Of a stretch of 64,000 nt of DNA, positions 3,532 through 59,356 are shown in pieces. The position numbers were made by a program, and so were the translations under genes. This DNA comes from a virus. The stretch is taken from the IMG/VR virus record IMGVR_UViG_3300027861_004304, positions 1-64,000 of that record. One strand, given 5' to 3'. The number at the start of each line of letters is the position of its first letter. Position 1 is the stretch's first letter. Below the pieces are notes generated by a model. That model searched no databases. It saw nothing but the letters and a program-made list of their open reading frames with translations, and was not told the origin of the DNA.

Positions 3532-3540
3532 ACTTCTCTC

Positions 3541-40329: not shown

Positions 40330-40622
40330 TAGTCAACGTCGCCTCCGTTTTGTAGCATATCAAAAATATCCGCTTTGTCGTCTTCCGAAAGGCCGGTATC
40401 CTTCTTTTCTTCCTTTTGGACCAAAGATGCGACCTTGACGAGTTGTTCGTTCGATCTCTGCAACGTCTCAACATATTTGGCGGCTGTCATGCCGACTTCT
40501 CTATGTCTTTCGTCGCTTTTGCTTAGATAAATCATCACGTCATCGAGCAAACGACGGGTTATTTCCCTGTCTTTTCGGACATTGTCAATTGCTTCGGCGA
40601 TGTATTTATCAATCTTTTTCAT
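40329..40622 (-). CDS. Small protein following the late sigma factor (gp33-position candidate)
   Basis: A 97-aa, highly charged helical protein. I chose the ATG at 40622 (MKKIDKYIAEAIDNV) because it overlaps the sigma-factor stop as ATGA, the coupling used throughout the window, instead of an upstream in-frame start 18 nt earlier. The sequence is Arg/Lys/Asp/Glu-rich, with helices interrupted near residue 70 and an acidic C terminus ending IFDMLQNGGDVD. T4 encodes the small late co-activator gp33 separately from gp55; size, charge and pairing with the gp55-like gene suggest the same job (bridging RNA polymerase and the clamp). No diagnostic motif confirms this. Confidence 0.55.
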   Translation of the reverse strand: MKKIDKYIAEAIDNVRKDREITRRLLDDVMIYLSKSDERHREVGMTAAKYVETLQRSNEQLVKVASLVQKEEKKDTGLSEDDKADIFDMLQNGGDVD

Positions 40623-41350: not shown

Positions 41351-41654
41351 TAATTAACTCCTCTGTTGTATCATCGTCGGAATATAAATTGTATTGATCA
41401 AACACCGAGGTCAAATCCTCAGCATGCTTGAGCAAGTGTCTCAAAGTCTCATCGCCATAGAAAGTTTCTAGCTCATAGACCGATTTTAAATGATTTTTGA
41501 AATTGCTGATAACTGTGATGTTTTCTGTTAATTCTTCATCGTAGTACTTTACTTGCTTGAGTAAATTGATCATATACCAGATCGTTCCAACGTGAACCAT
41601 GAAGCTCGCGAGCAGCGATAAAAGTAAAATGATCGTAATTGTTGACCAACTCAT
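41298..41654 (-). CDS. Small membrane-anchored protein next to the late sigma factor
   Basis: A 118-aa protein with one N-terminal transmembrane segment (ITIILLLSLLASFMVHVGTIW) and a cytoplasmic-looking charged helical tail (KQVKYYDEELTENI, LRHLLKHAEDLTSVF) rich in Asp, Glu and Thr. AAGGAG is followed by ATG in an ATGA overlap with the FmdB-like gene's stop. Its last 53 nt overlap the gp55-like gene in another frame. I do not recognise a named family; similar short membrane proteins sit at this place in other T4-like phage genomes as far as I recall. No function can be assigned. Confidence 0.72.
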   Translation of the reverse strand: MSWSTITIILLLSLLASFMVHVGTIWYMINLLKQVKYYDEELTENITVISNFKNHLKSVYELETFYGDETLRHLLKHAEDLTSVFDQYNLYSDDDTTEELINDDKAQRTSYAKEKTPN

Positions 41655-41911
41655 GATTTATACTCCTTTTCTCTCAATTTTCTCTTCTCTTCGGAAATAG
41701 ATTCCTTATTCTTCTTTATATACTCTTCGACAACGGATCCAGTTTTTTTCTCGGAACTCTTGTTGAGCTTGTTTATATAAGTAGGAATAGACGGAACACG
41801 ACGAAAGGCCTGGGAATCACAAATATTGCAATTCTCCAGGCTTTCCGACATGCCGTGTTTTATTTCGAAGTATTCATCGCAATCTTCGCAATGATAGTTA
41901 TACCTCGGCAT
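41651..41911 (-). CDS. FmdB-like zinc-ribbon protein
   Basis: An 86-aa protein from the ATG at 41911. I prefer this start because FmdB/zinc-ribbon family members begin with MPxYxYxC, and the in-frame codon 10 residues upstream (41941) is TTG. The zinc ribbon is Cys8 and Cys11 (HCEDCDEYF) with Cys28 and Cys31 (NCNIC). A basic/acidic helical tail follows (EEYIKKNKESISEEKRKLREKEYKS). In phages this small family is a conserved passenger near transcription genes; a nucleic-acid-binding or regulatory role is inferred from the family. It overlaps the upstream 64-aa gene by 14 nt and shares ATGA with the next gene. Confidence 0.8.
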   Translation of the reverse strand: MPRYNYHCEDCDEYFEIKHGMSESLENCNICDSQAFRRVPSIPTYINKLNKSSEKKTGSVVEEYIKKNKESISEEKRKLREKEYKS

Positions 41912-42092
41912 CTGTTTGTTCTTCGTCCTCTTGTTCGCCAAACTGGACGATTGGTGGGTTTTCCACCATTAATCCCTCTTCTGACTCTTTGAAAACGAAT
42001 TCTTTGAAAACAGGAACAATATCTGATTGTTCCATCAATGATTTTTGAAGCGCCATCATTACTGCGCCAATTGCTTGATTTGATAAATGCAT
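41898..42092 (-). CDS. Conserved small T4-like protein, function unknown
   Basis: A 64-aa protein starting MHLSNQAIGAVMMALQKSLMEQSDIV, an amphipathic helix, followed by an acidic tail (EQEDEEQTDAEV). I recall very similar starts in other marine T4-like phages but know no function. AAGGAGAT precedes the ATG, and a perfect consensus promoter (42113-42141) lies upstream, so it heads the operon that continues into the FmdB-like, membrane and sigma-factor genes. Confidence 0.75.
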   Translation of the reverse strand: MHLSNQAIGAVMMALQKSLMEQSDIVPVFKEFVFKESEEGLMVENPPIVQFGEQEDEEQTDAEV

Positions 42093-42112: not shown

Positions 42113-42141
42113 ATTATAACCCTTTATTCACTATTTGTCAA
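42113..42141 (-). promoter_or_regulatory. Consensus sigma-70 promoter before the sigma-factor operon
   Basis: TTGACA (42136-42141) and TATAAT (42113-42118) with a 17-nt spacer, both boxes matching the consensus exactly, in a 62-nt gap. Transcription should start near 42106, giving a short leader with AAGGAGAT before the ATG at 42092. Transcription from here would read the small genes, the gp55-like gene and possibly the tail block. Confidence 0.9.
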
Positions 42142-42154
42142 GGATTAAAGTAAA

Positions 42155-42805
42155 TTATCTTAAAATTTTTCTTAATAATTGAAATTTTTCTGCGTATGCC
42201 AAGCCTACTTCTGCTCCCCACACCTGCATTAAATTGATGATATTTTCTATGCTTCGGGTATGTGGAAAGTTTCTAAGTTCTTCTTCATAACACTCCTTTA
42301 GGACCTGGATTTTCTTATCCATTGTTTTATTAACGTCAAAATAAACATTTCCGTTAAAATTGGCCAAAGGATTATAATCTGTAGAGGACGGGACATAATA
42401 ACTGTAAATCTCTTGATGGCGGCCGTATTGAGGGCGAAAAACTGTCAAAGTTGCGCGGGACACAATTGAGTGATCAATGTTGAGACAGCCTGGATGGTGG
42501 GTAAAAATTATATTGGGAGTGAAATTTACATTACTTTCTATGAATTTACAAACTTCCAACATAGAAACCGTATCCATCTTATTATCGGGAAAAGCACCAC
42601 AAGAATAGTGGGCTATTCCCAATATATCACAAACCCGATCAAGCTGCTTGCTTCTCCCAGAAGAAGAGTTGTTGCGGGCACCAACACCATCTGTAAAAGT
42701 TATCAGATTAATCTTGTGTCCCTCTTGCGAGAGTTTTGCTAATGTTGCTCCGCAGCCGAGAGTTTCATCATCTGGGTGCGCAGCCAATACCAAAATATCA
42801 CTCAT
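42155..42805 (-). CDS. PIG-L/LmbE-type N-acetyl-sugar deacetylase
   Basis: A 216-aa zinc-dependent deacetylase of the PIG-L family, which removes acetyl from N-acetylglucosamine-containing substrates. It has the family opening AAHPDDE (8-14; His10, Asp12/Asp13 for metal and catalysis) and a second His pair in FTHHPGCLNIDHS. No signal peptide, so it acts in the host cytoplasm on a soluble or lipid-linked sugar. It is the last gene of the glycan operon, sharing ATGA with the methyltransferase before it. Its substrate is unknown; a sugar nucleotide or nonulosonate precursor made by the neighbours is a reasonable guess. Confidence 0.87.
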   Translation of the reverse strand: MSDILVLAAHPDDETLGCGATLAKLSQEGHKINLITFTDGVGARNNSSSGRSKQLDRVCDILGIAHYSCGAFPDNKMDTVSMLEVCKFIESNVNFTPNIIFTHHPGCLNIDHSIVSRATLTVFRPQYGRHQEIYSYYVPSSTDYNPLANFNGNVYFDVNKTMDKKIQVLKECYEEELRNFPHTRSIENIINLMQVWGAEVGLAYAEKFQLLRKILR

Positions 42806-43443
42806 GTTGATCTTTTTTTCAATAAATATACATGTTGCTTGCGATTATTTCTCCCACTGGGAAGTGGATATTTTTCTTCCTTTAAAAGTTCCAAATTATC
42901 ATGACTATTTAAATAAATAAGAGGAAAATTATCCGCCCAACACGCGTTCATCGTGCCCCTCCACTGGATCGCCACATTATCATCATGGTATAATTCACAT
43001 CCCCAAATATAGCCGCCCTCCTTGACACACCGACAGATTTCCTCAACAGCGGCCGCGATATCGTCGGGGCTAATGTGTATGAGCACTCCCGCTGTATAAA
43101 CAACGTCAAAGAAGCTGTCTCTAAATGGCAGTTCCAAGGCGGACGATACTTGTGCATTTACATTTGGAACTCTTTCTTTTAATTTTTCAATAGCTTGCGA
43201 TTGTATATCTATTCCATATAAATTTTTAAAACCATTTTGGTGGAGTACATGTAAATTTCTTCCGACATTGCACCCCACTTCTAAAATTTTGGCCTCTTTG
43301 TCTATAGATTCAAAATCTTTTAAAATATAAGAATTAGCATGAGAAATGTTAAATTTTTGTGTTCTCGGATTCCAATCATCATTACTTTTAGTATAACGCT
43401 CACCAACTTGCTCCCAAAATTTTATTTGTTCTGTTTTTTTCAC
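42802..43443 (-). CDS. Class I SAM-dependent methyltransferase (first of two)
   Basis: A 213-aa methyltransferase with motif I ILEVGCNVGRNLHVLH, an acidic residue binding the SAM ribose (YGIDIQSQAIEKL), and motif IV-like YTAGVLIHISP. The start codon is GTG at 43443 (TAGGAG upstream), translated as MKKTEQIKFWEQ. Given its place in the glycan operon, a sugar or capsule-like glycan is a likely acceptor, but no substrate motif can be read. Related phage-encoded methyltransferases also modify lipids or small metabolites. It shares ATGA with the deacetylase gene. Confidence 0.85.
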   Translation of the reverse strand: MKKTEQIKFWEQVGERYTKSNDDWNPRTQKFNISHANSYILKDFESIDKEAKILEVGCNVGRNLHVLHQNGFKNLYGIDIQSQAIEKLKERVPNVNAQVSSALELPFRDSFFDVVYTAGVLIHISPDDIAAAVEEICRCVKEGGYIWGCELYHDDNVAIQWRGTMNACWADNFPLIYLNSHDNLELLKEEKYPLPSGRNNRKQHVYLLKKRST

Positions 43444-43453
43444 TATTTATCTC

Positions 43454-44134
43454 CTATTTTTTTAATAAAATGTTTAAACTTAAATTGGGATTATCCACGG
43501 TTATACATTTATCCCAACGGGCATCGCGCTGGCCTGAATTGATCGCGAATCTAATTTCTTCGCAACTTTTGAAGCCGGCCTGCTGCGCAGCTAGCCTAAG
43601 TTCTTCAAAAGAATAAAAACTAATAAGGTGGTTGTATTTCCCGTGAGGATTTCCTTTTTTCATTTTTTCACTATGACAATGAAAGATGGCGGCTTGACCG
43701 TTCCCATCCAATATGCGAAATAAATTTTTCATCGCAACATAAATTTTTGATTTATCTAGATATTGCATGCATGCTCCGGAGAAGGCCTTCGAAAAGGCGC
43801 CAGAGGGCAATTCAGATAAATCCGGGAAGCTGTCATTGAGGCATGTTACGTTTTTAACATTTACGTTTTTAACATTTCTTTGTGCTATTTTTACTTGACT
43901 TGGTGAATAATCAACCATGACCACTCCGTTAACGAGCTTGGAAACTTCTAGGGCGAGGCCGGCGCTAGCTCCCCCAATATCTGCTACATTATCTTTTTTA
44001 TTAAATTCCAAAAATTTATTTAAAATTATGGCCATTTCGTTATATGACATCAACCCACTTCTAGCGGCGCTTTTATAAACATCAGATGTCGCTTTGTTGT
44101 TGTATAGGGTTCTCCAATATTCCTCTTGATTCAT
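43454..44134 (-). CDS. Class I SAM-dependent methyltransferase (second)
   Basis: A 226-aa methyltransferase: motif I is NVADIGGASAGLALEVSKL, with MVDYSPSQVKIAQ (SAM ribose-binding Asp) and AFSGACMQYLDKS as the catalytic-strand equivalent. It begins MNQEEYWRTLYN. It follows the WbqC-like gene by one base (TAATG). It is not a close copy of the next methyltransferase, so the two are probably independent acquisitions or very old duplicates acting on different positions of the glycan. Substrate unknown. Confidence 0.82.
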   Translation of the reverse strand: MNQEEYWRTLYNNKATSDVYKSAARSGLMSYNEMAIILNKFLEFNKKDNVADIGGASAGLALEVSKLVNGVVMVDYSPSQVKIAQRNVKNVNVKNVTCLNDSFPDLSELPSGAFSKAFSGACMQYLDKSKIYVAMKNLFRILDGNGQAAIFHCHSEKMKKGNPHGKYNHLISFYSFEELRLAAQQAGFKSCEEIRFAINSGQRDARWDKCITVDNPNLSLNILLKK

Positions 44135-44817
44135 TATTCACCTCTTATAAGTTGTTGTGATTTTTCTGGGCCCTCATTAAACAGAAGATCCACTATAGAC
44201 AAATAGGGAATGAATTCACCCCATTGCTGATTGTAAGTTGGATGTTCATAATCTTGAAAATATATTTCTATATTTTCATTTTCAAATTTCTCATTATCAA
44301 CGTAATCTTTTCCCTGAGATCCAAAAAGGAAACTATTAGCTTTTCTTTTTTTACAAATATCAATTACTAAATCCTGTTTTTTGGATTCTACTTCCAAGGC
44401 GCTTAATTTGATAAAGCAGGTCTCAATATCTAATTCCTTGATAAAAAATCTAGTTGAATAGTCTGTTAAGTCGATTAATTTTTCCCAATTTTTCGCATAC
44501 ATATCCTCAAAAAAATCACTATATTGCGAAAAAAATGGCGCCCTTTTATAATTATTTAACAAAGTGAGCCAGTGCTTTTTTCTCCACTTACTTGTATTGT
44601 TTATCTTCATATCCAATATTGTTTTTTCGTGATAACCCTTTGTTAAAACGGGGACCGTTAACCAAGCGGGGCCGGACGACGTCTTAATTCTATTTCGATT
44701 AATAAAGCTATTTTTTTCAAACTGAACTTTGTCTAAAATGATGTATTCGCTACTTAATATCATTTTTTGAAAATAGCCAAGCCATGGCAAATAGGCCGGC
44801 TGGTGTGCTGTTAACAT
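44134..44817 (-). CDS. WbqC-like protein
   Basis: A 227-aa protein of the WbqC family, found in O-antigen and other glycan gene clusters, whose biochemical role is not settled. The start LTAHQPAYLPWLGYFQKM is the family hallmark, followed by LDKVQFEKNSFINRNRI and WLTVPVLTK. It sits between the acetyltransferase (7-nt overlap) and a methyltransferase (1-nt overlap). Presence of this family next to nonulosonate genes supports the reading of the region as a surface-glycan operon. No catalytic residue can be named with confidence. Confidence 0.85.
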   Translation of the reverse strand: MLTAHQPAYLPWLGYFQKMILSSEYIILDKVQFEKNSFINRNRIKTSSGPAWLTVPVLTKGYHEKTILDMKINNTSKWRKKHWLTLLNNYKRAPFFSQYSDFFEDMYAKNWEKLIDLTDYSTRFFIKELDIETCFIKLSALEVESKKQDLVIDICKKRKANSFLFGSQGKDYVDNEKFENENIEIYFQDYEHPTYNQQWGEFIPYLSIVDLLFNEGPEKSQQLIRGE

Positions 44818-45260
44818 GATGGCGTGCCTCTCGTCTTATAATATCCCTCTTTAACCCTATAGGGGTTTCCCACAATTAAAGAATAGGGGGGAATATGTCC
44901 CCCATTAATTAAAATAGTGCCGGCCGCGACGACTGAATGGTGTCCTATATGAGTTTTTCCGCCAATAAAACTATGAGAACCCACGAACACGTTGTCTTCT
45001 AAAATTATTTCTCCACGCTCAATTTCATCATGTATACCTATGCACAACTTATGAGAATCTGCTACGTTAATTGAGACAAAGGAGGCTATATCGCAATTAT
45101 CTGACAGAACCACCTTCCCCTTTGTTGCATTAACTTCCGAATAAAATCCTACAAAAACATTTTTCCCTATTTCTGGAGATCCCTTAATATATACAAGCGG
45201 ATGAAACTGATTGGGATATAGCCCCAGAAGTTTAACCAAGAGATTTTTAATTAATCTCAT
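44811..45260 (-). CDS. Hexapeptide-repeat acyltransferase
   Basis: A 149-aa left-handed beta-helix protein. Repeats of the I/V-G-x-x-x-x type are seen (IGKNVFVGFY, LSDNCDIASFVSINV, ILEDNVFVGSHSFIGGKTHIGHHSVVAAGT), ending with the IPPYSLIVGNPYRVK signature of sugar O-/N-acetyltransferases. It would transfer acetyl from acetyl-CoA to a sugar. Position right after the NeuB-type synthase (4-nt overlap) fits a NeuD- or PseH-like acetylation of the nonulosonate or its precursor. It starts MRLIKNLLVKLLG, a slightly hydrophobic but not signal-like start. Confidence 0.85.
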   Translation of the reverse strand: MRLIKNLLVKLLGLYPNQFHPLVYIKGSPEIGKNVFVGFYSEVNATKGKVVLSDNCDIASFVSINVADSHKLCIGIHDEIERGEIILEDNVFVGSHSFIGGKTHIGHHSVVAAGTILINGGHIPPYSLIVGNPYRVKEGYYKTRGTPSC

Positions 45261-46276
45261 TGTGAAATATCCTCATAAAGTATAATGTCGTCCTGTATTT
45301 TATCAACCTTTAAGATGCGACCAATAAGATCATCGATCTTTTTAGGAGAAAGGCCTGTGCCCGGTCGCTTAAATGATAAATCACTCCTAGACAAAATATG
45401 ACCCCTCGACAGTGGCTTGTTAGTGACAATACTTCTGCGAGCGATATCCCTCATCGATCGTTCTCTAATGGTAGGCACCAAGTCTGGAGATCCAAGAATG
45501 GCCTCTGTGCGGCGGATATCTAGTACTAACTTTTTCATTTGGGATGGTGTGGCCGAGAAATGGTGGTCGGGGCCCGGAAGACTCGAATCGAGGGTGAAAT
45601 GTTTTTCGACGACCTCGGCGCCTTGAGCGACTGCGATTACAGATGCGAGTTCATCGCGCGTGTGATCTGAAAATCCGATTTTTACATTGAATTTTTTTTT
45701 AATTTCTAACATTTTTCTCATATTAACTTCACAATCCTCCGCAGGATATGAAGAAATACAATGTAAGACTGTCAAGTCCAATTGCCCCTCGCTCCTTATC
45801 GCAAATACAGCGTCTGCGATTTCCTCCTCGAAGGACATGCCTGTTGAGATTATCATTGGTATTTTTTTATTTGCATAGTATTTCAGCAAATCTAAATTGG
45901 TTAAATCATCGGAGCCAACCTTTATCATTGGAGGATCAAAGATTCTCAGAATAAAATCCAAATCTGACTTATTTTGCGGAGTTGTGAAACAAACTATTTC
46001 ATTTATGTTACAAAAATTGACTATTTCTAGCCATTCCTCATCGGAAAATTCATATCTTTTGAACATCTCCATTTGAGATTCTGTGATTTCTTTTCCTTGA
46101 GACTCATAGGTGTAAGTTAAGTCTGAATCTACTATGAACTCCTCTGCTTTAAACGTCTGAAATTTGACTGCGTCAGCCCCGGCGTCCTTTGCTGCCTTAA
46201 TTGTCTCTTTGGCCAAAGAGACAATTCCATTATGATTTATTCCTATTTCAGCTATGATAAAGCACCGGTTAACCAT
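45257..46276 (-). CDS. neuB: Nonulosonic acid synthase (NeuB/PseI/LegI family)
   Basis: A 339-aa enzyme that condenses phosphoenolpyruvate with an N-acetylmannosamine-type sugar to a nine-carbon nonulosonic acid. Residues 1 to about 275 are the TIM barrel: EIGINHNG, DAVKFQTFKAEEF, IKVGSDDLTNLDLL, MIISTGMS, LHCISSYPA, GFSDHT, EKHFTLDSSLPGPDHHFSATP. The C-terminal about 55 residues are the SAF (antifreeze-like) domain that closes the substrate site in these enzymes. Length equals the cellular family. Substrate (N-acetylneuraminate, pseudaminate or legionaminate) needs a phylogeny. The context includes a PseB-like dehydratase and a PseC-like aminotransferase, so pseudaminate-type sugars are favoured. 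Confidence 0.94.
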   Translation of the reverse strand: MVNRCFIIAEIGINHNGIVSLAKETIKAAKDAGADAVKFQTFKAEEFIVDSDLTYTYESQGKEITESQMEMFKRYEFSDEEWLEIVNFCNINEIVCFTTPQNKSDLDFILRIFDPPMIKVGSDDLTNLDLLKYYANKKIPMIISTGMSFEEEIADAVFAIRSEGQLDLTVLHCISSYPAEDCEVNMRKMLEIKKKFNVKIGFSDHTRDELASVIAVAQGAEVVEKHFTLDSSLPGPDHHFSATPSQMKKLVLDIRRTEAILGSPDLVPTIRERSMRDIARRSIVTNKPLSRGHILSRSDLSFKRPGTGLSPKKIDDLIGRILKVDKIQDDIILYEDISQ

Positions 46277-46463
46277 TCTCGGATAGCTCTTTTACCAACG
46301 TTGAGATTCGATTATCAAACTCATCGACTCTTGACATCAATTTCCTTGCTTCATCTGGTGCGACCGTGAATACTAACCTCAAGATATCCATCCAATTAAC
46401 GTTGTTTTTTGTTCTAATCTTCTCAATTTCATCAATAATTTCTAGATCTGTTCGTTTTGACAT
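46269..46463 (-). CDS. Small protein of the nonulosonate cluster, unknown
   Basis: A 64-aa helical protein (TDLEIIDEIEKIRTKNNVNWMDILRLVFTVAPDEARKLMSRV). Its start lies 22 nt inside the CMP-sugar synthetase gene and its end 8 nt inside the synthase gene, so it is fixed in place between the two central pathway genes. I have a recollection of similar short proteins beside neuB-like genes in marine bacteria, not verifiable here. No motif suggests catalysis; a small accessory or binding partner is possible. An independent reading frame with its own ATG and the overlaps support it being real. Confidence 0.62.
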   Translation of the reverse strand: MSKRTDLEIIDEIEKIRTKNNVNWMDILRLVFTVAPDEARKLMSRVDEFDNRISTLVKELSENG

Positions 46464-47152
46464 TTTCCCTCTCTTTGTGAATTTTCAAACATTTTTTCAG
46501 CTATTTCAAGCTGCCACTCATAATCAATATCCCAGCATTCCTTTTCGCTCTCAACAACAAAAATATCCGGATCGAAGCGCCTACGGAAAGAACCCATATG
46601 TATATTTCTCCGTATGTCGGCTGTGGATCCCGCATATAAGCAATGGGCCGCTTCATAAATTATATTGGCTTTTTTAGTGTCCAAGTGTGCCGTACACTGT
46701 TCTAATGGTGTGCCCCCCGAATCCCAATAAAATGTACGTTTTTTTACAACTCCGAACAAGCCACGGTAATCAGATTGTAGATATTTTTTAATAAAACTCT
46801 CTATTGTTGTGGTTAATAGAAAAGGACAACATGCATTTATCTCTACAAAAAATTTGTGTGGAATATGGTCAACAATTTCATAAATCTCTCTGATGGTGGC
46901 AGTCTCTGAAATTGATGCGTCGGCTCTTTTGAAAAGATTTATATCTGTATATTTCGAGGCGATATTTAATACTTCTTGGCCATGGCCTGCTACAAAAATT
47001 TGATCATTTGGGATTATTTTCGAGGCGAGTAATTTATTTATTGCCACATCAAGAAGGGTAGTTTGAGAAAACTTCTTAAACATTTTTCCCGGAAGCCTCT
47101 CAGAATTAGACTTTGCCAATATCAAAAATGAAATATCTTTAATATTTTTCAT
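46442..47152 (-). CDS. CMP-sugar synthetase (NeuA/PseF-like cytidylyltransferase)
   Basis: A 236-aa enzyme that activates a sugar acid with CTP. The N-terminal FLILAKSNSERLPGKMF is the nucleotide-binding loop of this family (SxRLPGK). Next come a partner-strand Asp segment and IREIYEIVDHIPHKFFVEINACCPFL, the region that in NeuA/PseF holds NPTSPLR-type residues (here ACCPFL). It is encoded directly upstream of the small protein and the NeuB-type synthase. An alternative would be an acylneuraminate/3-deoxy-manno-octulosonate cytidylyltransferase; the neighbours favour a nonulosonate. Confidence 0.87.
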   Translation of the reverse strand: MKNIKDISFLILAKSNSERLPGKMFKKFSQTTLLDVAINKLLASKIIPNDQIFVAGHGQEVLNIASKYTDINLFKRADASISETATIREIYEIVDHIPHKFFVEINACCPFLLTTTIESFIKKYLQSDYRGLFGVVKKRTFYWDSGGTPLEQCTAHLDTKKANIIYEAAHCLYAGSTADIRRNIHMGSFRRRFDPDIFVVESEKECWDIDYEWQLEIAEKMFENSQREGKCQNEQI

Positions 47153-48036
47153 TATTTTTCATAACCCCATCTTTTAAGTTGTGGATGTAAAATTTCTGTT
47201 ATATATGAGGGCAGGTCTTTTGGTAAACTTTTCCACTCTTCAAGAATGCCACTATTCATATGGTCACCATGAAGAGATAATCCGGTTTTATTTTTTTTAT
47301 CCCACGATCTAAAATTTTGATGTAATCTAGTTTTTTTAAAATTATTCTCAAAAGAGAATCTTGATTTCAAATCTTCTCTTTTATCTTCCCCTATTCTTAA
47401 ATCCCCGTCATAACCGTGAAATTTTAAAATTTCCCTATTTTCTGTAGAATTAAAGAAGGCTTCGAATTTATCAAAGATCTTATTATAATCACTATAAAAA
47501 TCTTCATATTTCAACAACAATACCCGATCTTTAAATTTTGAATTAATAAACTCAAACCCATTAATTTGAGGGATTACTTCTCTTTCGGCCAATAAGAATA
47601 ATTCTTTTTTCGTAGGGAGAGTCGTGAAGGACTCTTCTTTGCAAATACCAAACATAGATAATCTCATTCGCCTCGTCGACAAAATAATATCTCTAAAATC
47701 TCGATACGTCACAATGATCGGACTCCCATTAGTTGGTGGTCGAAATAAATTAAATCTAGGTAACTTATAAAAATAGAGAATTTTATCGTAGTCAAAAATT
47801 TCTGACATCAACTGCTTCAATAAAGTAGATCCGCTCCTTGGAACAGAAAAATTGTATATAATTTCATCATAGTTGTTAATATCTGTGTTTCTTCTTCGCG
47901 ACTTTGAATTGTCGAATTGATCGCCCTCTTCTAGATAATTTAAGACTTTAGGATTGTCCGTTTCTCCCCAAAAGCTATGAGTGGGTCTGGTGTATTCAAG
48001 ATATCTCATATACTTTTGAAATTTTATTGTTGTCAT
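47152..48036 (-). CDS. PAPS-dependent sulfotransferase
   Basis: A 294-aa sulfotransferase. The 5'-phosphosulfate-binding loop is SVPRSGSTLLKQLM (64-77), and the 3'-phosphate-binding stretch is VTYRDFRDIILSTRRMR. A YEDFYSDY helix and an acidic/aromatic C-terminal half follow. It would move sulfate from PAPS to a hydroxyl or amino group of a glycan (or glycolipid), in the cytoplasm (no signal peptide). It is flanked by the CMP-sugar synthetase (1-nt overlap) and the DUF115-like gene. Phage-encoded sulfotransferases in sugar operons are unusual; acceptor unknown. Confidence 0.86.
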   Translation of the reverse strand: MTTIKFQKYMRYLEYTRPTHSFWGETDNPKVLNYLEEGDQFDNSKSRRRNTDINNYDEIIYNFSVPRSGSTLLKQLMSEIFDYDKILYFYKLPRFNLFRPPTNGSPIIVTYRDFRDIILSTRRMRLSMFGICKEESFTTLPTKKELFLLAEREVIPQINGFEFINSKFKDRVLLLKYEDFYSDYNKIFDKFEAFFNSTENREILKFHGYDGDLRIGEDKREDLKSRFSFENNFKKTRLHQNFRSWDKKNKTGLSLHGDHMNSGILEEWKSLPKDLPSYITEILHPQLKRWGYEK

Positions 48037-48044
48037 TTTTTACC

Positions 48045-48938
48045 CTATGTTTGAACATATTCTATAAAATTATTAAGAATAGTAAATTTATCTTCCACAA
48101 TCGAATATATATTCATGTTTGTGTATTTTTTCCATTCAACCCATTCTTTCAAGTAGAATTCCTGAAATGACGAATCTTCGAAGATGCCGGCTGAATTTTT
48201 CGGATCATCCCAGCGGCCGCCAATTCCATCGAATCCGACAATATAGACATTACTGGATCCGATATGGGCACAAACAGGTAGTGTTACCATGGTCATCTTG
48301 TTTTCAGTCATGTGCATAAATCCATACTTCTTTTTGTTGACATATGGAAACGCGCGGCCTTGCGAATATATATTTCTTAAATAAGGCTCTGCTGCTGGTG
48401 GATATCCAGAACTTCCAAAGATTATAATATTTTCTTCATTATTAAATCTTAGGCTTGGTTGCCTAGAATTTTCTCCAAGACTAGCTAGCTTAGGATATTC
48501 TTCCGGATTCTGGTTTATACTCTTAATTGAAGTATATTTTAAATCCTGCACTTCGGAAAACTTTGGGCGCGCCATTTGTAGATTTTCCCAAAATTCTGTC
48601 CAATATTTCAAAGGAAGGCGCACTGTATCTCCTGCAAAATATTTATTTAGAGTCTTGATATCGCCGATATGTGTTCCCTTTTCGTGATGAATTGTTAGTA
48701 ATTTTGTTTTTAATTTTTTATGTTCAGTATATGTATCATTAATTAATTTTAAAGTATCAAGAGCCGACGTGGGGTCAACGAAAAACCAATAATCTGGCTC
48801 AATTCCCCTTTGCAAGAATAGTTCCATAGAATTACTATAACACATGATCTCAATATTGGGATCTTTAGAAAATCTTGCGAGATCATCCCACATTTTTAAG
48901 GTACTCTCACCGGTACCGACAAGTAATATGTTTTTCAT
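48045..48938 (-). CDS. DUF115/GT42-like protein, possible sialyltransferase
   Basis: A 297-aa protein with the layout of DUF115/motility-accessory or GT42 sialyltransferase folds: NILLVGTGESTL at the start, DYWFFVDPTSA in the middle, a later SSGYPPAAEP and, near the C terminus, SNVYIVGFDGIGGRW. A similar domain forms the C-terminal part of the 677-aa glycosyltransferase encoded at 50922 (ILSCGPTLTDHDE, GVSEIITVGWDN). In bacteria these domains transfer nonulosonic acids to protein or lipid. Because the operon makes and CMP-activates such a sugar, I favour a nonulosonyltransferase. The fold assignment is by pattern only. Confidence 0.6.
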   Translation of the reverse strand: MKNILLVGTGESTLKMWDDLARFSKDPNIEIMCYSNSMELFLQRGIEPDYWFFVDPTSALDTLKLINDTYTEHKKLKTKLLTIHHEKGTHIGDIKTLNKYFAGDTVRLPLKYWTEFWENLQMARPKFSEVQDLKYTSIKSINQNPEEYPKLASLGENSRQPSLRFNNEENIIIFGSSGYPPAAEPYLRNIYSQGRAFPYVNKKKYGFMHMTENKMTMVTLPVCAHIGSSNVYIVGFDGIGGRWDDPKNSAGIFEDSSFQEFYLKEWVEWKKYTNMNIYSIVEDKFTILNNFIEYVQT

Positions 48939-49948
48939 AATTTAAATTCCGTGTGTAGCGGCAAATTTAGAATAGAAGAATGCACAAGCTCTAAATTAGG
49001 AAGTATTTGGCCGTTGCTAAAATATGAGGTTTTGTGCAACATCGGATAGTGTCTCGCTAATCTATTATTTAATATAACATCATTTGCCTTGATTGTCAAG
49101 GCCGTAGCGAAATAAAATGAAGATTTTTTATTGTGAGGTAATAGACACCCCTCAAATTTATCTAGCATTTTGAAATAATTCTCTTGCCTGATCTTCAAAC
49201 TGTCCTCATATCGATCTAGTTGAACTAACCCCATTGTGGCGTTGAGATTGTTCATATAAAATTTGAAGCCTTCTTGAACTATATCATATGATCCTTCGCC
49301 TTGTTGTCTTCCAAAATTGCGATAAGATCTGAAATATTCATCAGCACCGGGGTCATCTGTGGAAATCATTCCACCATCAGATGTACAAATTGGTTTATAG
49401 GGGTGGAAAGAGAAAAATATAAAATCACTTTTAATAGTTGGCGTGACACAATGAGCGGAGTCGACTACGACAATCTCGTCATCGCATTTTTCTTTATAAA
49501 AGGCATCAAAACCTTCAATGTTGCTTACCCCGCCGTATAGAACTGGCATAACGACGCGAGGATTTGATTCCCAAAAAACGTCCCGCAATTTGTCGCGGCG
49601 AAGTTGCCTTTGTTTTTTATAATCTTTTATGCTAAATTGAAGATTATCGTCAACATCAACAAAAATTAAATTATGGCCAAAATGTTTTGCTGCCCAAGCT
49701 GGGGATGTGAATCCCAGAGATGTAGTATATACATCGCACACTCCATATTTTTCTTTAAGATAAGAAAAAATCATAAAAGCCGATGCGCTGGCTGAATTTG
49801 TTGCAATATTAAATTTTTTATTTGAAAAGGAAGCAAACTTGTTCTCGAATAATGACACATTTTCGCCAAAACCTATATTCCCACTCAATAAAACCTCATT
49901 TATTTTACCAAGATCTTCTTTGCAAATTCTTGTTTCAAACATCTTCAT
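48935..49948 (-). CDS. PLP-dependent sugar aminotransferase (DegT/DnrJ, PseC-like)
   Basis: A 337-aa member of the DegT/DnrJ/EryC1 family. Seen: SGNIGFGENV (N-terminal nucleotide-sugar loop), ATNSASASAF (phosphate-binding), VVVDSAHCV (Asp163, pyridine-nitrogen ligand) and FFSFHPYKPICTSDGGMIST (Lys185, Schiff-base lysine). It would aminate a keto-sugar nucleotide made by the neighbouring dehydratase, giving the 4-amino sugar that is the precursor of pseudaminic-type sugars (PseC role). It follows the dehydratase gene by 5 nt and shares ATGA with the next gene. Length is a little below the cellular family (about 370-390 aa) but all key residues are present. Confidence 0.9.
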   Translation of the reverse strand: MKMFETRICKEDLGKINEVLLSGNIGFGENVSLFENKFASFSNKKFNIATNSASASAFMIFSYLKEKYGVCDVYTTSLGFTSPAWAAKHFGHNLIFVDVDDNLQFSIKDYKKQRQLRRDKLRDVFWESNPRVVMPVLYGGVSNIEGFDAFYKEKCDDEIVVVDSAHCVTPTIKSDFIFFSFHPYKPICTSDGGMISTDDPGADEYFRSYRNFGRQQGEGSYDIVQEGFKFYMNNLNATMGLVQLDRYEDSLKIRQENYFKMLDKFEGCLLPHNKKSSFYFATALTIKANDVILNNRLARHYPMLHKTSYFSNGQILPNLELVHSSILNLPLHTEFKL

Positions 49949-49953
49949 TTAAA

Positions 49954-50922
49954 TTATTCCGCGATCTCGAGCCCAGACTTGATTAACTCAATTAATTGAC
50001 AAACATCTTCGTTTAAATGAAGTGATGAATTAAATTCTTTTCCGGCATAGAGAACACTATAAGTGTGCTTCTTGTGAGTGTATTGAGGTAGCACGGCCAA
50101 TAAATTATTTGATATTTCCATAGTGAAGGGAAGTTCTGTCTTAGCCAGCATATCTTCATGAAGCTTTTCCCCAGGGCGCATGCCGATAATTTTCACCTTT
50201 AAATCATCAATATTTGTTATTTTTTTAATAGAATCTAAAATGGTACCCATCGAAAAGGAATTAATCTTTGGTATAAAAACTTCTCCACCCTGAGCGCTCT
50301 CCAAAGAATTTAAAACTGTGTCAACTGCATCGTTGAGAGTAAATAAAAATCTACTACACTCCATAGAGGTGACAGTGATCTCTCGACCAGACTTAATTTG
50401 ATTGAGCCAAAGAGGAATGAACGAGCCGCGAGAGGCAATCACATTTCCATAGCGAACCGATGCAAAAATTGTGCTACTTGAATTGTAATCAAAATTTGTA
50501 AAAATACGTTCTGCTATGAATTTTGAAGAACCATAGACGTTGACCGGTTGACACGCCTTATCTGTTGAGATAAGAATGCACTTTTTAACATCGTTATTAA
50601 GCGAGGCTATTGCTACATTCTCACTACCTTTAATATTTGTTTTAACGCACTCGTCTGGATAAAATTCCATATCTTCTATTCTTTTTAGAGCACCAGCGTG
50701 AATAACATAATCTGGTTTATGTAGCCTCATTGTTGTGTCGAGTTTTTTATGATCTCTCACATCTCCGATGACACACTTGATTCTTGGACGACCCTTGAAC
50801 GAAACCGCTTGTTTTCCCTCGTCTCTGCTATAAACAATTATTTGATTCTTGGGATCTTTCAGAAGCTTTTTGATGAGTGCTTTACCCAAAGATCCTGTAC
50901 CGCCGGTAATAAAATATTTCAT
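49954..50922 (-). CDS. Nucleotide-sugar 4,6-dehydratase / 5-epimerase (PseB/CapD-like)
   Basis: A 322-aa short-chain dehydrogenase fold. TGGTGSLG (6-13) binds NAD(P); IGDVRDHK is the adenine-side segment. STDKA (119-123) and YGSSK (Tyr130, Lys134) are the catalytic pieces in the variant typical of the inverting 4,6-dehydratase PseB and of CapD/WbpM proteins, where STDKA includes the catalytic Asp and Lys. Likely substrate is UDP-GlcNAc. It is the first committed step for the operon's amino sugar; the aminotransferase gene follows 5 nt later. The start overlaps the upstream glycosyltransferase by one base. Confidence 0.92.
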   Translation of the reverse strand: MKYFITGGTGSLGKALIKKLLKDPKNQIIVYSRDEGKQAVSFKGRPRIKCVIGDVRDHKKLDTTMRLHKPDYVIHAGALKRIEDMEFYPDECVKTNIKGSENVAIASLNNDVKKCILISTDKACQPVNVYGSSKFIAERIFTNFDYNSSSTIFASVRYGNVIASRGSFIPLWLNQIKSGREITVTSMECSRFLFTLNDAVDTVLNSLESAQGGEVFIPKINSFSMGTILDSIKKITNIDDLKVKIIGMRPGEKLHEDMLAKTELPFTMEISNNLLAVLPQYTHKKHTYSVLYAGKEFNSSLHLNEDVCQLIELIKSGLEIAE

Positions 50923-52955
50923 TATAATTTTACTCTTTCAATTGTTTTTGGTGCAGGATTGATAGAGGAAACTATTTTTAAAGTTGTGCCTCTTTTATTT
51001 AACCAATCTGCCCAATTAGTGATTGCATCAGTCGTGATCTCGGCCTCATGCTTGAGGGTGGCCACTGCGTCTGGATTATCTGATACTTTATTTTGCTGAA
51101 TGAACTCTTTCTCATTATAATTAGACCCTTCTTTGTCATAAAAGTGCGTCTTAGACGGATCAGGGCTTATCAATTTATTATCCCACCCGACAGTTATAAT
51201 CTCTGATACTCCTAAATGCTGGGCTAAATAGAATACTGATTCATACATAATTCCGGGCCCATAGGGTCTGGTATTGGTTTCTTTGTCATATGTCCAAGAG
51301 TCGAAATCGTGTGTTTTGGAAACAGAATTGTTAAAATCCCTTTCTCTAATAAAGAATTTTAAATCATTTACCCCCAAGTTCCACGGAGTCGTAGATGCCT
51401 CAACCGCAATTGGATTGTGGGTTGAATAATCATAATTCTTAAAATTGGCGCAGTTATATGTATGAAAATCTACATATTCTCCAAACAAGTCAAAGGCTTG
51501 CTTTACTGAAATTACAACGTTGTCTTTAAGAAGATCTTTTAATTTTCCTTCGTCGTGGTCCGTTAAGGTCGGCCCGCATGATAAAATATAGCATTTCTTT
51601 CCCTTGAAAGAATCTTTCAACAACTCAATTTTTTCTGTCTGAGAGTTGAGGTTTCTTACTGCGCTTTTAAGGGCTTTTGACCTTTCTTTCACATTTTCAA
51701 TTTCTAAAATTGAATCTTTGACGGTCGACAAATTCTGGACATCTTTAATGCCCGGAAGAACCTCTTCCGCAAACTCATTATATATTTTTTCTTCTGTGAA
51801 ATTCTTTACAAGATATTTCTTCAATTTTGCAGCGTTTCTTTTGAACCTGGAATATTCACCCCGGACTTCTCGGAGCCTCCTCTTAAAGCTGGCTTCTCTC
51901 GGAAAGGCCCATTGAGAATCCGCCTGGATAACATTCTCCCAAACGGCCTGCTTCTGGACGTCCTGTAAATCATAGTCTACGGACGCAAACATGGGCTTCT
52001 TTTTCCCTTTTCTCTTTGGATCAGGCATGTAAAGGAAGTCACAGTGACCTGACCAGCCAGATACGATCACTGGAAGACCATTATAAGCTGCCTCAAATAG
52101 AGGAAGACCAAAGCCTTCTCCGTGAGCCGTCGAAACAAGCGCTTTAATTTTTGGATGTTGATATAAACCGGTCATTTCTTCCGGTGTCAAATCTCCGTGT
52201 ATCAGATAAACTTTACACTTACAGGTTTCCCCTCCAAAGGTGCGCAGGAGAGATTGGAGTCTGCTTTGAGTGTGGCCCCGATCAATGATGCAATTGCTCT
52301 TAACAGAAGTTTTAAGAACAAGGCCAACTTCTTGATCAAAGTTTTCTTCCAGAAACCATTTGACGAGATTATCAAAGTTTTTCCTTGGACCCCATTGAGA
52401 AACGGCAAGGTAATTGAAATCATAATCGAGTTTCAAGTTGAGCTTCTCTTTCTCAAAATGACGAACTGGATAATTAACTGCCGCAATCGGAGTCTGACAA
52501 GTCAAGTGAACAGTTTCGCCTGTCTGATTATTCTGCCCTTGATAGTTTGTTGTTTCAAAGACGCCCTTAGAGTGGTTTGAGACAACGACAATTCTATCCA
52601 TCTCGTTTGCTTTTTGAAGCCAAACTGGTGCAACCTTCGTTGTTTCAATTCCCGCTGTATATCCAATGTTAATTGGTGCCAGTTTCTCCCATTCGTTGGG
52701 AATTGTTACTTGCAATGACATGTCAAATTGTCCACCCTGCTGAGTAAAAATATGCGTCTGTGCGATTCTCTGATCTGTCCAAGTTCGTTCTTCGCACGCA
52801 TCGCTAACCCAGCCAGTTTGGCCCCATGCGGTCGGAATAACATAAATATCAAAGATGTCTTCCCTTGATCTGAGAGCCCTCAAAGCAAATCTTGCCTGTT
52901 CTCCATATCCAGATTGTGAAAGGACTGGCCCCCTTACTACGATTTTTTGTCTCAT
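50922..52955 (-). CDS. Two-domain glycosyltransferase: GT4-type domain plus DUF115/GT42-like domain
   Basis: A 677-aa protein. I take ATG 52955 (MRQKIVVRGPVLSQSG) because it shares ATGA with the previous stop, rather than an in-frame start 24 nt upstream. Residues 1 to about 420 are a GT-B glycosyltransferase with a glycine-rich N-terminal GYGEQAR loop and the donor-site signature HGEGFGLPLFEAAYNG (near 275). Residues about 445-677 form a second domain (KCYILSCGPTLTD, VVISVKQAFDLFG, GPGIMYESVFYLAQH, ITVGWDN) similar to the protein at 48045-48938. A double transferase that adds one sugar and then a nonulosonic acid is one reading. The second domain's function is inferred. Confidence 0.78.
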   Translation of the reverse strand: MRQKIVVRGPVLSQSGYGEQARFALRALRSREDIFDIYVIPTAWGQTGWVSDACEERTWTDQRIAQTHIFTQQGGQFDMSLQVTIPNEWEKLAPINIGYTAGIETTKVAPVWLQKANEMDRIVVVSNHSKGVFETTNYQGQNNQTGETVHLTCQTPIAAVNYPVRHFEKEKLNLKLDYDFNYLAVSQWGPRKNFDNLVKWFLEENFDQEVGLVLKTSVKSNCIIDRGHTQSRLQSLLRTFGGETCKCKVYLIHGDLTPEEMTGLYQHPKIKALVSTAHGEGFGLPLFEAAYNGLPVIVSGWSGHCDFLYMPDPKRKGKKKPMFASVDYDLQDVQKQAVWENVIQADSQWAFPREASFKRRLREVRGEYSRFKRNAAKLKKYLVKNFTEEKIYNEFAEEVLPGIKDVQNLSTVKDSILEIENVKERSKALKSAVRNLNSQTEKIELLKDSFKGKKCYILSCGPTLTDHDEGKLKDLLKDNVVISVKQAFDLFGEYVDFHTYNCANFKNYDYSTHNPIAVEASTTPWNLGVNDLKFFIRERDFNNSVSKTHDFDSWTYDKETNTRPYGPGIMYESVFYLAQHLGVSEIITVGWDNKLISPDPSKTHFYDKEGSNYNEKEFIQQNKVSDNPDAVATLKHEAEITTDAITNWADWLNKRGTTLKIVSSINPAPKTIERVKL

Positions 52956-54217
52956 TTTGTAATCTCCGTGAAAGCCCAAGGCTTATATCCTTTCCGTGTT
53001 TCCCAGGAACCGTGGTTCTCGACGACTGAATCAATCAAATCAATCCACTGCTTCTGGAAGTTCTCAAAATTATAGTTTTTTGCGACGTGTTGACGGCCTT
53101 TGATTCCCAGAAGTTTCCTTTCATCGCGACTCATCAAAAAAACGTCTCTCAGAGCCCGTATGAAGTCTTCCTTAGAAACCCTGTCTTCGTAGATGTATGG
53201 AACCTGTTGAGAGCCTATGATGGCCTTTGAGGCCGGTGTAAGGCCTATTCCAAACCAGTCCTTCCCGTCAGTGACTTGTTCCTGCAGGCCGCCGGTCATA
53301 TTGACGATAATCGGGGTCTGGCAAGAGAGGCTTTCAAGCGTTGCCAGCCCAAATCCTTCTGCGTCTGAAATATTGATCGTACAGTCGGCCATGTTGTACA
53401 TCGCTGCAAGGGCTTCAGGGGCAATTTTGTTTGTCGAAAGAACAATGCGGCCGTCTGTTGCTTCAAGATTATTTAGAATGACCTCGAGGTCTTGACCGTT
53501 TGGATCCTTCGGGTCCGTATGCATGATGAGACGAACTTTATCTGTCCCCACCTCTTCCGCAAATTCATTAAACCAGTGAACAAGCGAGCCGCTCATCTTC
53601 CGGCGTGCGTTTCTGTTATTCCAGAAGAATGTCACCCTTTTGTCTTCGTCGCCATCAAAGTGGTTTGCTCGAAGGCTCGCGATATCTTCATCTGAAAATG
53701 GTCGGAAGATTCCAGTATCAACTGCGTGAGGAATATAATGGTTTTCGACATGCGGAGAAACTTTATTGACAATATCGTGGGTTACCTTTGAGATTGACGC
53801 GATGACGTCTGTTGAGCTATAGAACTTATCATTAAATTTTGGAAGAGGATAATTGTCCCAAACGTGATAATAGACCATTGGAATATGTTTTCGCACTTCA
53901 TTTTCAATGGACCACAACCAGCCGTAGAAGCGAGGGTCTGTCATAAACCAAAGCATATCTGGCTTTTCATTGAAGATGACTGAACGGACCATTTCTGGGG
54001 TTCCATAGCCCTTAACTGGATATACGATCCAATCTTCGTCCCAGCCTTCTACTTTTTGTGGTTTGTAATCTTTGTGTGCGACGGCGCCGCCAAGACAAAT
54101 GAATTTGTATTTGCCTGTTTTTAGCAGTGTCTCAATAATGTACTTCGTTTGAGTTCCAACTCCCGACGGAGCCATGGGGTGATCTGCAATCACCAAAATC
54201 TTCTTTTTTTCTGTCAT
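52952..54217 (-). CDS. GT4-type glycosyltransferase
   Basis: A 421-aa GT-B enzyme of the GT4 family. Seen: ADHPMAPSGVGTQTKYIIE (acceptor/glycine-rich loop), HAVDTGIFRPFSDED, WNNRNARRKMSG, and the donor-binding motif SDAEGFGLATLESLSCQTPIIV (EGFG-x7-E). The C terminus holds a short helical tail. No signal peptide or membrane segment. It is the first gene of the glycan operon after the nuclease (8 nt later) and overlaps the next glycosyltransferase (ATGA). Donor and acceptor cannot be told from sequence. It may act on a lipid-linked glycan, a virion protein or DNA; the neighbours favour a surface glycan. Confidence 0.9.
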   Translation of the reverse strand: MTEKKKILVIADHPMAPSGVGTQTKYIIETLLKTGKYKFICLGGAVAHKDYKPQKVEGWDEDWIVYPVKGYGTPEMVRSVIFNEKPDMLWFMTDPRFYGWLWSIENEVRKHIPMVYYHVWDNYPLPKFNDKFYSSTDVIASISKVTHDIVNKVSPHVENHYIPHAVDTGIFRPFSDEDIASLRANHFDGDEDKRVTFFWNNRNARRKMSGSLVHWFNEFAEEVGTDKVRLIMHTDPKDPNGQDLEVILNNLEATDGRIVLSTNKIAPEALAAMYNMADCTINISDAEGFGLATLESLSCQTPIIVNMTGGLQEQVTDGKDWFGIGLTPASKAIIGSQQVPYIYEDRVSKEDFIRALRDVFLMSRDERKLLGIKGRQHVAKNYNFENFQKQWIDLIDSVVENHGSWETRKGYKPWAFTEITK

Positions 54218-54225
54218 TTAAACCT

Positions 54226-54987
54226 CTATGGACATTCGGGGGATCGGCAAAAATCGCACTTTGCGCAAGACCGCTTGTCCTTAATATAATTCTTTCTTTT
54301 AATGTTGAAAAGAGCCTTTTTTAGAAGGCTGCTTGCATTTTCCATCTTTTTGTTTCCGCTTGTTACGCGAAAGATTTCAACTCTTGATTTTTTTGCTGTT
54401 CGTTTAAGAAGAGCAAAGTGTGTCTCAATATTTTTCAAGTCGATTCCGTGCTTCTGCGCAAAGAAAATCTTGTATAATGTCAACTGATAGGTCACCATTG
54501 GATCAGATCGTTTTCGCATATCCCATCCCCAAGAGCAGGACTTCCAATCAATAATGTGATATTTTCCGTCAGGGGTCTTGACGACAGCGTCGATATATCC
54601 CTTGAAGTTGTAATCTTCATTGTCAATTTTAACCATGAGTTGTTCTTCTGTTGAGAACACTTCGTATCCTTCCTTAAAATACTCGGTGACGGCTGGAATA
54701 ATCGCTGGGAGGATCCCCATTGCTTGGACGGCCATATTCTCCAAGTCTTCTCGGAACTCGATGTCGCTATCCAATGCTGCCAAGCACTCCTCGAATCTCT
54801 TCATAAAGTATTCTGGCGGCTCAAATTTCTCTTCTAACAATTTCTTCTCACAAACGTCGTGAATGGCAGTTCCAAAGGCAGTATATTCGTTTCCCCTAAA
54901 TCCCTTGAGCTTATCAATATAAGTCAATTTGTGATAGAAGGGACAGAAATTCCAATTTTTCAACTCAGAAAAGGATATGTGTGGCAC
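54226..54987 (-). CDS. RecB/Cas4-like PD-(D/E)XK nuclease with iron-sulfur cluster motif
   Basis: A 253-aa nuclease. Core: His43 (FGTAIHDV), Asp133 (GYIDAV), Asp147 and Lys149 (IIDWKS), then YQLTLYKIF with Gln168 and Tyr172, the Q-x3-Y helix of RecB/Cas4/AddB nucleases. Four Cys near the C terminus (Cys241, 244, 247, 252; CAKCDFC... C) plus Cys15 near the start match the spacing of a 4Fe-4S site in AddB and Cas4. No helicase domain is attached. It likely degrades or processes DNA ends, possibly host DNA. It has its own promoter (55028-55055) inside the upstream gene. It is a single-gene leader to the glycan operon. Confidence 0.88.
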   Translation of the reverse strand: MPHISFSELKNWNFCPFYHKLTYIDKLKGFRGNEYTAFGTAIHDVCEKKLLEEKFEPPEYFMKRFEECLAALDSDIEFREDLENMAVQAMGILPAIIPAVTEYFKEGYEVFSTEEQLMVKIDNEDYNFKGYIDAVVKTPDGKYHIIDWKSCSWGWDMRKRSDPMVTYQLTLYKIFFAQKHGIDLKNIETHFALLKRTAKKSRVEIFRVTSGNKKMENASSLLKKALFNIKRKNYIKDKRSCAKCDFCRSPECP

Positions 54988-54990
54988 TTG

Positions 54991-55395
54991 TTACTCTTTT
55001 GATGGTAAAGTTTCTTCTTGTATATATATTATAACATCTTCAGGAGATTTGTCAAGTGTTTTTTTCACTTTTTTCACTTTTTTTATGGTTTTAACTGGTT
55101 TTTTCTTAATTGGGGCTGATTTTTTAACTTGAGGGGGTGGCTCTGGCAGGACGGGTGATTTTTTAGGTTTCTCAAAGACCCATTCTCCAGATAAATATTT
55201 ATGCCCAGACTTGTTTGTAACCATATCTGATGAGGGGCTTTTCAGGCATGCTCCAACTTCCACTTCTTGCTGTGAAAGATATTTCATGACATCTTTATGT
55301 AAAATCTTTTCCCTGACCTTATTTTTTCCTTTCAATGGGGCGACACTCACCAAGACTGATATTGTGTCGTCACTTTCATTTATTTTAATCTTCAT
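54991..55395 (-). CDS. Lys/Pro-rich protein of unknown function
   Basis: A 134-aa protein. The first 70 residues are compact and may form a small fold (VSVLVSVAPLKGK... SGHKYLSGEWVFE). The rest is low-complexity and strongly basic, with KKSAPIKKKPVKTIKKVKKVKK and Pro runs, ending in an acidic tail. Basic disordered tails of this sort often bind nucleic acid. The start overlaps the metalloprotease gene's end by 11 nt. The tail carries, on the same strand, a promoter (55028-55055) for the nuclease gene. Not recognised by family. Confidence 0.6.
   Translation of the reverse strand: MKIKINESDDTISVLVSVAPLKGKNKVREKILHKDVMKYLSQQEVEVGACLKSPSSDMVTNKSGHKYLSGEWVFEKPKKSPVLPEPPPQVKKSAPIKKKPVKTIKKVKKVKKTLDKSPEDVIIYIQEETLPSKE
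55028..55055 (-). promoter_or_regulatory. Sigma-70-type promoter for nuclease and glycan operon
   Basis: TTGACA (55050-55055) and TATAAT (55028-55033) with a 16-nt spacer, lying within the last codons of the upstream gene. Start near 55021, about 34 nt before the nuclease ATG (54987). Since no other promoter is visible before 42155, this one probably drives the nuclease plus the whole glycan operon. Confidence 0.8.
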
Positions 55396-59280: not shown

Positions 59281-59356
59281 TGGTGCCTCCGACACGATTC
59301 GAACGTGTAACCCTCGGCTTAGAAGGCCGATGCTCTATCCGTTGAGCTACGGAGGC
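59281..59356 (-). tRNA. tRNA-Arg (anticodon TCT), CCA encoded
   Basis: On the minus strand the 76-nt sequence folds as a complete cloverleaf: acceptor GCCTCCG/CGGAGGC, D arm GCTC/GAGC, anticodon stem TCGGC/GCCGA with loop CTTCTAA (anticodon TCT), 5-nt variable region GGGTT, T arm ACACG-TTCGAAT-CGTGT, discriminator A and an encoded CCA (59281-59283). The 5' end abuts the stop codon of the preceding gene (59357-59359). It reads AGA, a codon favoured in AT-rich phages but rare in many hosts. Confidence 0.96.

Follow-up and report, generated by a model that had tools for sequence, protein, structure and literature searches.

A predicted nonulosonate operon as probable cargo of an exchangeable glycan cassette in marine T4-like phages

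Genes of the operon and its flanks

The stretch of DNA analysed here (the window) comprises positions 1 to 64,000 of IMG/VR record IMGVR_UViG_3300027861_004304, a 71,937-bp virus contig, and carries at 42155-54217 an operon that appears to encode a near-complete route to a nonulosonic acid (NulO), together with enzymes for its activation and transfer. Comparison with related phages leaves us nearly certain that this operon serves as cargo in an exchangeable glycan cassette at a fixed site in a marine T4-like clade. The operon comprises 14 open reading frames (ORFs), all on the minus strand and transcribed from high to low coordinates, with overlaps of 1–28 nt at most junctions and gaps of no more than 10 nt. 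The original prediction for this DNA counted fifteen genes in a single direction; the direction holds, while the number is 14, which is also how many that prediction itself lists. The gene families it assigned were borne out by Pfam and NCBIfam scans, the sulfotransferase alone being weak.

All features below lie on the minus strand and are given in window coordinates. A perfect sigma-70 promoter (55028..55055; TTGACA-16-TATAAT, with TG before the −10) sits 40 nt upstream of the transcription unit and would lead into a PD-(D/E)XK exonuclease that forms the constant left flank (54226..54987), then into two glycosyltransferases and the swappable cargo. The first glycosyltransferase, GT1 (52952..54217), is a constant stem gene of the GT4 family; the second, GT2 (50922..52979), joins a constant N-terminal GT4 domain to a swappable C-terminal PF01973/Maf-like domain (residues about 440–600) and is a predicted transferase of NulO activated with cytidine monophosphate (CMP-NulO). 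There follow a PseB/FlaA1-type 4,6-dehydratase of uridine diphosphate-N-acetylhexosamine (UDP-HexNAc; 49954..50922; PF02719, 277 bits; closest solved structure 2gn4), a divergent, PseC-like aminotransferase of the pyridoxal phosphate-dependent DegT type (48935..49948; PF01041, 122 bits) with an SFHPYK lysine motif, a DUF115/PF01973-like protein (48045..48938), likewise a predicted CMP-NulO transferase, whose low-confidence model hints at a GT42/GT29 sialyltransferase-like fold, and a putative sulfotransferase (47152..48036). This last protein scores 18–19 bits, under both Pfam cut-offs, and has no relative in a PDB sequence search; a P-loop-like motif, PRSGSTLL, is nevertheless present. Further along lie a cytidylyltransferase of the CMP-NulO synthetase type (46442..47152), a 64-amino-acid (aa) accessory-domain protein, p64 (46269..46463), a NeuB-family nonulosonate synthase with a SAF domain (45257..46276), a hexapeptide (left-handed beta-helix) acyltransferase (44811..45260), a WbqC-like protein (44134..44817; 263 bits), two S-adenosylmethionine-dependent methyltransferases (43454..44134 and 42802..43443) and, as the final cargo gene, a PIG-L/LmbE-type deacetylase (42155..42805; 77 bits). 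At the right border a second perfect sigma-70 promoter (42113..42141; TTGACA-17-TATAAT) would drive a constant downstream unit (40619..42092) made up of a 64-aa protein, a zinc ribbon protein, a 118-aa membrane protein and a gp55-like late sigma factor.

A NeuB search of IMG/VR recovered a second copy in record IMGVR_UViG_3300002231_001563 (G001, 167,580 bp), where all 14 genes occur in the same order, at near-equal lengths and between corresponding flanking genes. Protein identities between the two copies run from 54 to 91%, the maximum among the cargo proteins being that of p64 (91%), and the flanking exonuclease is 85% identical. Synonymous change approaches saturation in most genes, and non-synonymous change is only 0.05–0.30, which indicates that every one of the 14 genes is under purifying selection. 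The original prediction had suggested a search for related operons in other phages; the full operon is found in G001 and partial relatives in G046–G049, no other complete copy appeared in viral-contig scans with the DUF115 protein and the cytidylyltransferase, and megablast of the operon against phage records gave no match. That an assembly error fused bacterial DNA with a phage contig, as the lower GC content of the cargo (31–40%, below much of the window) might suggest, has a negligible chance of being right and can be set aside, given the same operon and flanks in an independent metagenome contig, the conserved border promoters, and other cargoes at the identical site in dozens of contigs.

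The clade itself is T4-like by its marker genes, as originally predicted: the capsid protein gp23 is present in G001 and 12 other relatives, and the window, a fragment that itself does not span gp23, has matches to baseplate wedge, gp55-like late sigma, SbcC/gp46-like and primase proteins. Beside the baseplate genes lie two giant ORFs (16818-27662, 3614 aa; 31370-38203, 2277 aa), the latter with no PHROG match, and the sole tRNA gene of the window is a tRNA-Arg (TCT) at 59281-59356.

A fixed site with exchangeable cargo

Relatives were collected with two short peptide patterns of the flanking exonuclease, which returned 80 related contigs, themselves incomplete. In the 44 of these where it could be measured, the interval between the exonuclease and the gp55-like sigma gene ranged from 0.8 to 27.5 kb (median 14.7 kb), always on the same strand, and NeuB occurred in 10 of the 44, each time inside this interval. 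Of the 39 islands fetched, 38 have GT1 and GT2 immediately after the exonuclease; in G037 one further ORF intervenes. The remaining cargo of the window has relatives in few of these islands, and cargo differs even between phages whose exonucleases are 83–85% identical. In G002, for example, the site holds GT11 and GT10 fucosyltransferase-type genes, an FkbM methyltransferase, a hexapeptide-like gene and a DegT gene, and in G018, which lacks cargo, the sigma gene stands 0.8 kb beyond the exonuclease.

The site is also delimited by promoters. Scored out of 12, against a null mean of about 8, sigma-70 promoters reach 11–12 at 31–64 nt upstream of the exonuclease throughout the close clade (G001–G008 and G044), and the right cargo border carries a perfect one (12/12) in all nine of these closest relatives. 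Two strong predicted sigma-70 promoters thus mark the island borders in the close clade, and no T4-type late promoter TATAAATA lies ahead of the operon. One such late promoter does occur in the window, at 57776, 37 nt before the PhoH gene, the glycan island having sigma-70 promoters only. The original prediction did not notice that the operon is one among many swappable cargoes, which occupy a set position bounded by two strong promoters and preceded by a conserved pair of glycosyltransferases.

More distant isolates share part of this arrangement. Flavobacterium phage immuto has the order exonuclease–GT1–GT2 with sugar genes next, its GT1 homologue being 29% identical over 464 columns (E 6e-64), and Microcystis phage Mel-JY01 has the same order, but with one gene between, again followed by sugar genes. 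They differ from the window in that no NeuB relative was found there and in glycosyltransferase identities of just 29–36%.

The nonulosonate route

From these gene families a route can be proposed in which the PseB-like dehydratase and the DegT aminotransferase would convert UDP-N-acetylglucosamine into a UDP-amino-dideoxy sugar, which the hexapeptide acyltransferase, with p64, would N-acylate. A UDP-hydrolase absent from the phage (host PseG or an unrecognised enzyme) would release the free sugar, NeuB would condense it with phosphoenolpyruvate, and the cytidylyltransferase would yield CMP-NulO. In G005 p64 is joined to a GNAT acetyltransferase, and the record of L088 has it fused with a formyltransferase, pairings that suggest an accessory role for p64 in N-acylation.

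The NeuB assignment is firm at the family level (PF03102, 265.2 bits, cut-off 22.1; SAF, 39.4 bits, cut-off 21), and the protein keeps equivalents of N. meningitidis NeuB E25, K53, K129, H215, H236 and R314, six of the seven active-site residues compared. The seventh, E134, is replaced by D124, and the same D occurs in the sister bacterial subfamily. The cytidylyltransferase exceeds the cut-off of CTP_transf_3 (PF02348; 49 versus 22.6 bits), and a PDB profile search matched it to the CMP-Neu5Ac synthetase 1qwj (E 6e-7). Of 50 records, 15 contain NeuB, and the cytidylyltransferase is found in these 15 and in no others; with four records that were fetched through the cytidylyltransferase omitted, the count is 11/11 versus 0/35 (p 7e-11, nominal since the phages are related). 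We consider it very probable that a NulO is made and CMP-activated.

Which NulO this would be is less readily said. The original prediction equated the operon with the pseudaminic acid route, an equation that the curated models do not sustain: the window proteins fall short for PseB (277 of 408 bits), PseC (97 of 424), PseF (TIGR03584; 34 of 206) and PseI (TIGR03586; 269 of 340), and NeuB, at 345.7 bits, scores higher with NnaB (TIGR03569) than with PseI, while missing that cut-off (399.65) as well. In the NeuB tree the window and G001 proteins join L093, L097 and L098 (support 99/87), apart from PseI 8h2c, the reference branches being long. With no window protein reaching a Pse-specific curated threshold, and with NeuB falling into a different subfamily of its family, present sequence evidence does not warrant the name pseudaminic acid for this sugar. 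That the route is near-complete and wants only a PseG-type hydrolase was correctly foreseen: PseG was found in none of the 50 phage records, whose contigs may be incomplete, while the bacterial control L093 scores 313 bits. NeuC-type epimerases occur among the phage records only in G027 and G037, and not in the window phage. Since PseG is absent from all 50 and NeuC-type epimerases are confined to two, the NulO produced probably differs among the phages that share this site.

It is improbable that the enzymes yield instead a different 3-deoxy-ulosonate, or a sugar that is not activated, rather than a sialic-acid-like NulO. The absence of PseG, the PseB, DegT and cytidylyltransferase scores below family thresholds, and the replacement of the active-site E134 by D would all fit such a product, but the strong NeuB-family assignment with its SAF domain, the strict co-occurrence of NeuB with the cytidylyltransferase, and the sister bacterial islands, which combine full Pse-type sets with the same D, argue against it.

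Those islands are instructive in themselves. Among the matches listed, the closest bacterial NeuBs lie in islands ordered PseB–PseC–cytidylyltransferase–PseG–NeuB–acyltransferase–WbqC–PIG-L and adjoining flagellar genes, which we take to be FlaG/FliS/FliT-like in L093 and FlrA-like in L098. In L093 PseB, PseC and PseG exceed their cut-offs, and the phage hexapeptide acyltransferase is 60–65% identical to proteins of such flagellin-glycosylation-type islands. Elsewhere in the NeuB tree, 17 phage proteins are scattered over several places; because well-supported branches force at least five changes, independent recruitment of NeuB by phages is likely, though long branches call for caution.

A tblastn search of 50,697 public phage records gave only three distant NeuB matches. 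One short record of Moritella viscosa, classed with the phages, carries a sialic acid synthase (29% identity; FPLJ01000048.1:4943-5833). An unrelated phage contig, L003, carries a DegT–NeuB–hexapeptide trio just upstream of its large-terminase gene (1791-4218), with a NeuB that passes the NnaB threshold (440 bits); a DUF115-like ORF (166 aa; L003:13100-13600) near capsid-type genes again accompanies NeuB. Two records, G009 (L183) and G046 (L087), each hold two different NeuB-family genes.

Transfer, acceptor and known systems

Transfer would fall to the PF01973-like domains. Their scores, 31.8 bits for the GT2 C-terminus (E 1.5e-7) and 26.0 bits for the DUF115 protein (E 9e-6), lie below the gathering score of 34.6. 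The GT2 C-terminal domain is present in the NeuB-bearing G000, G001, G004 and G005 and missing in six other close relatives, which lack NeuB (p 0.005, nominal); in other phages this position holds GT-A or other domains, or none. An AlphaFold model of the DUF115 protein (pLDDT, a per-residue confidence, of 53) finds its best structural match in the P. multocida sialyltransferase (Z 8.7), with CstII at 7.8 and CstI near; sialyltransferase matches span Z 8.7–7.5, alongside MptE-type and thiamin pyrophosphokinase folds. Neither the DUF115 protein nor the GT2 C-terminus has relatives in PDB sequence searches. The PF01973 domain of Maf is described as resembling Cst-II, and Maf as attaching nonulosonic acids to flagellin (PMC11339370). 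Taken together, it seems reasonably probable that these domains transfer NulO onto the GT1/GT2 glycan.

The reading we favour, by a modest degree of confidence, is that the phage assembles a glycan on an acceptor of its own within the cytoplasm and caps it with NulO: GT1 and GT2 would begin it, the PF01973/Maf-type domains of the DUF115 protein and GT2 would add the NulO, and the methyltransferases, putative sulfotransferase and PIG-L enzyme would decorate it. Because all the enzymes are predicted to be soluble and cytoplasmic, the acceptor would most likely be a phage-borne protein such as a virion component, and the likeness of the transferases to a protein-directed family (PF01973/Maf) may point the same way. 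A hydropathy scan found no multi-span membrane transporter, flippase or polymerase in the islands, and the initiating polyprenol-phosphate transferase PF02397 was found in 0 of 22. A phage-borne rather than a host-specific acceptor is further favoured because GT1–GT2 stand beside the exonuclease in all but one of the relatives and also in the Flavobacterium and Microcystis isolates. That the acceptor sits on the virion we hold to be slightly short of an even proposition. Virion glycosylation is reported in mycobacteriophages (Freeman 2023, as cited in PMC12619734). In G001 the Pfam match of the gp23 frame (591 aa; C1:82319-83854) is split in two by a long insertion, possibly a surface domain and candidate glycan acceptor.

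Several points weigh against this reading. No acceptor was identified, and the sigma-70 promoter, which suggests early expression, also fits host takeover. With neither PseG nor a NeuC-type enzyme in the window phage, the route is incomplete without the host, and PseB and DegT fall far under their curated thresholds. The Z values of the DUF115 model are borderline, with unrelated thiamin pyrophosphokinases scoring close, and the AlphaFold model of the GT2 C-terminus (pLDDT 45) gave no useful structural match. Published authors have interpreted similar phage clusters as modifying host O-antigen (PMC7824862; PMC7029224).

The strongest competing explanation, which we nonetheless judge rather unlikely, is that the cassette alters the host surface glycan, whether lipopolysaccharide (LPS) core, O-antigen or capsule, at an early stage of infection, so as to shut out rival phages or mask the cell. 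It accords with the perfect host-type promoter before the unit, with a hypervariable cargo that resembles O-antigen diversity, with the customary reading of cyanophage and pelagimyophage clusters, and with the ability of soluble GT4 enzymes to use acceptors at the inner membrane, be they lipid-linked or core. It is harder to square with the lack of a flippase, polymerase, Gtr-type membrane protein or initiating transferase, with a GT1–GT2 pair kept in phages of Bacteroidota and Cyanobacteria, whose surface glycans differ, with a bacterial counterpart devoted to protein (flagellin) glycosylation, and with a lytic cycle that leaves little time for re-coating the surface. Action on host flagellin, in the manner of bacterial Maf proteins, would suit the PF01973/Maf-like domains and the collinearity with flagellin-glycosylation islands; it is very unlikely, as no selective reason for a lytic phage is evident and GT1–GT2 are shared by phages whose hosts, Flavobacterium and Microcystis, are to our knowledge not flagellated. 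No more likely is a glycan placed on phage DNA, as in the glucosyl-hydroxymethylcytosine of T4: DNA glycosylation is known in phages and GT1/GT2 match PF20706 (GT4-conflict) above its cut-off, but a thymidylate-synthase-family hydroxymethylase is absent in 21 of 22 relatives, and we know of no precedent for sulfation, methylation or NulO capping of DNA.

If the acceptor is indeed phage-borne, a wider picture can tentatively be drawn, one that we regard as a real but minority possibility, in which the clade wears exchangeable virion glycans: a GT1–GT2 stem on a phage protein, an outer sugar set by promoter-bounded cassettes that are swapped together with the GT2 C-terminal domain, and NulOs recruited several times independently. 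Cells rely on sialic-acid-like sugars as key molecules of recognition. Were the virion the acceptor, particles would vary in glycan serotype, giving phages serotypes of their own; were it the host surface, the cassette would provide a rapid, swappable block to superinfection. Either way, the fixed, promoter-bounded site with its constant glycosyltransferase pair gives the loose idea of 'phage LPS genes' the shape of a concrete system open to testing, and frames the questions of the acceptor, the sugar and the supplier of the missing hydrolase.

No report of a phage NulO operon was found in the literature searched, and term searches of PMC7824862 and PMC7029224 found no mention of NeuB or sialic acid. 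Among known systems, the bacterial flagellin-glycosylation islands of Noviherbaspirillum (L093) and Endozoicomonas (L098) share gene families in the same order and a sister NeuB; the phage lacks their PseG and second DegT, its PseB and DegT are divergent, and it adds GT1, GT2-PF01973, the DUF115 protein, p64 and the putative sulfotransferase. The likeness to the Maf/PF01973 flagellin NulO transferases and the GT42 sialyltransferases (CstII) consists of near-threshold PF01973 scores and the tentative fold match of a rough model, whereas the phage GT2 carries its PF01973-like domain fused to a GT4 domain. The neuB/neuA reads of uncontaminated viromes (PMC3877843) are read counts only, without operon, pathway, site or transferase. 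Finally, the glycan or 'LPS' clusters of T4-like cyanophages such as P-SSM2 and the host-recognition clusters of pelagimyophages likewise bring hypervariable sugar genes to marine T4-like phages (PMC7824862; PMC7029224); what sets the present island apart is that it is defined by its conserved GT1–GT2 stem, its border promoters and a set position between the exonuclease and sigma genes.

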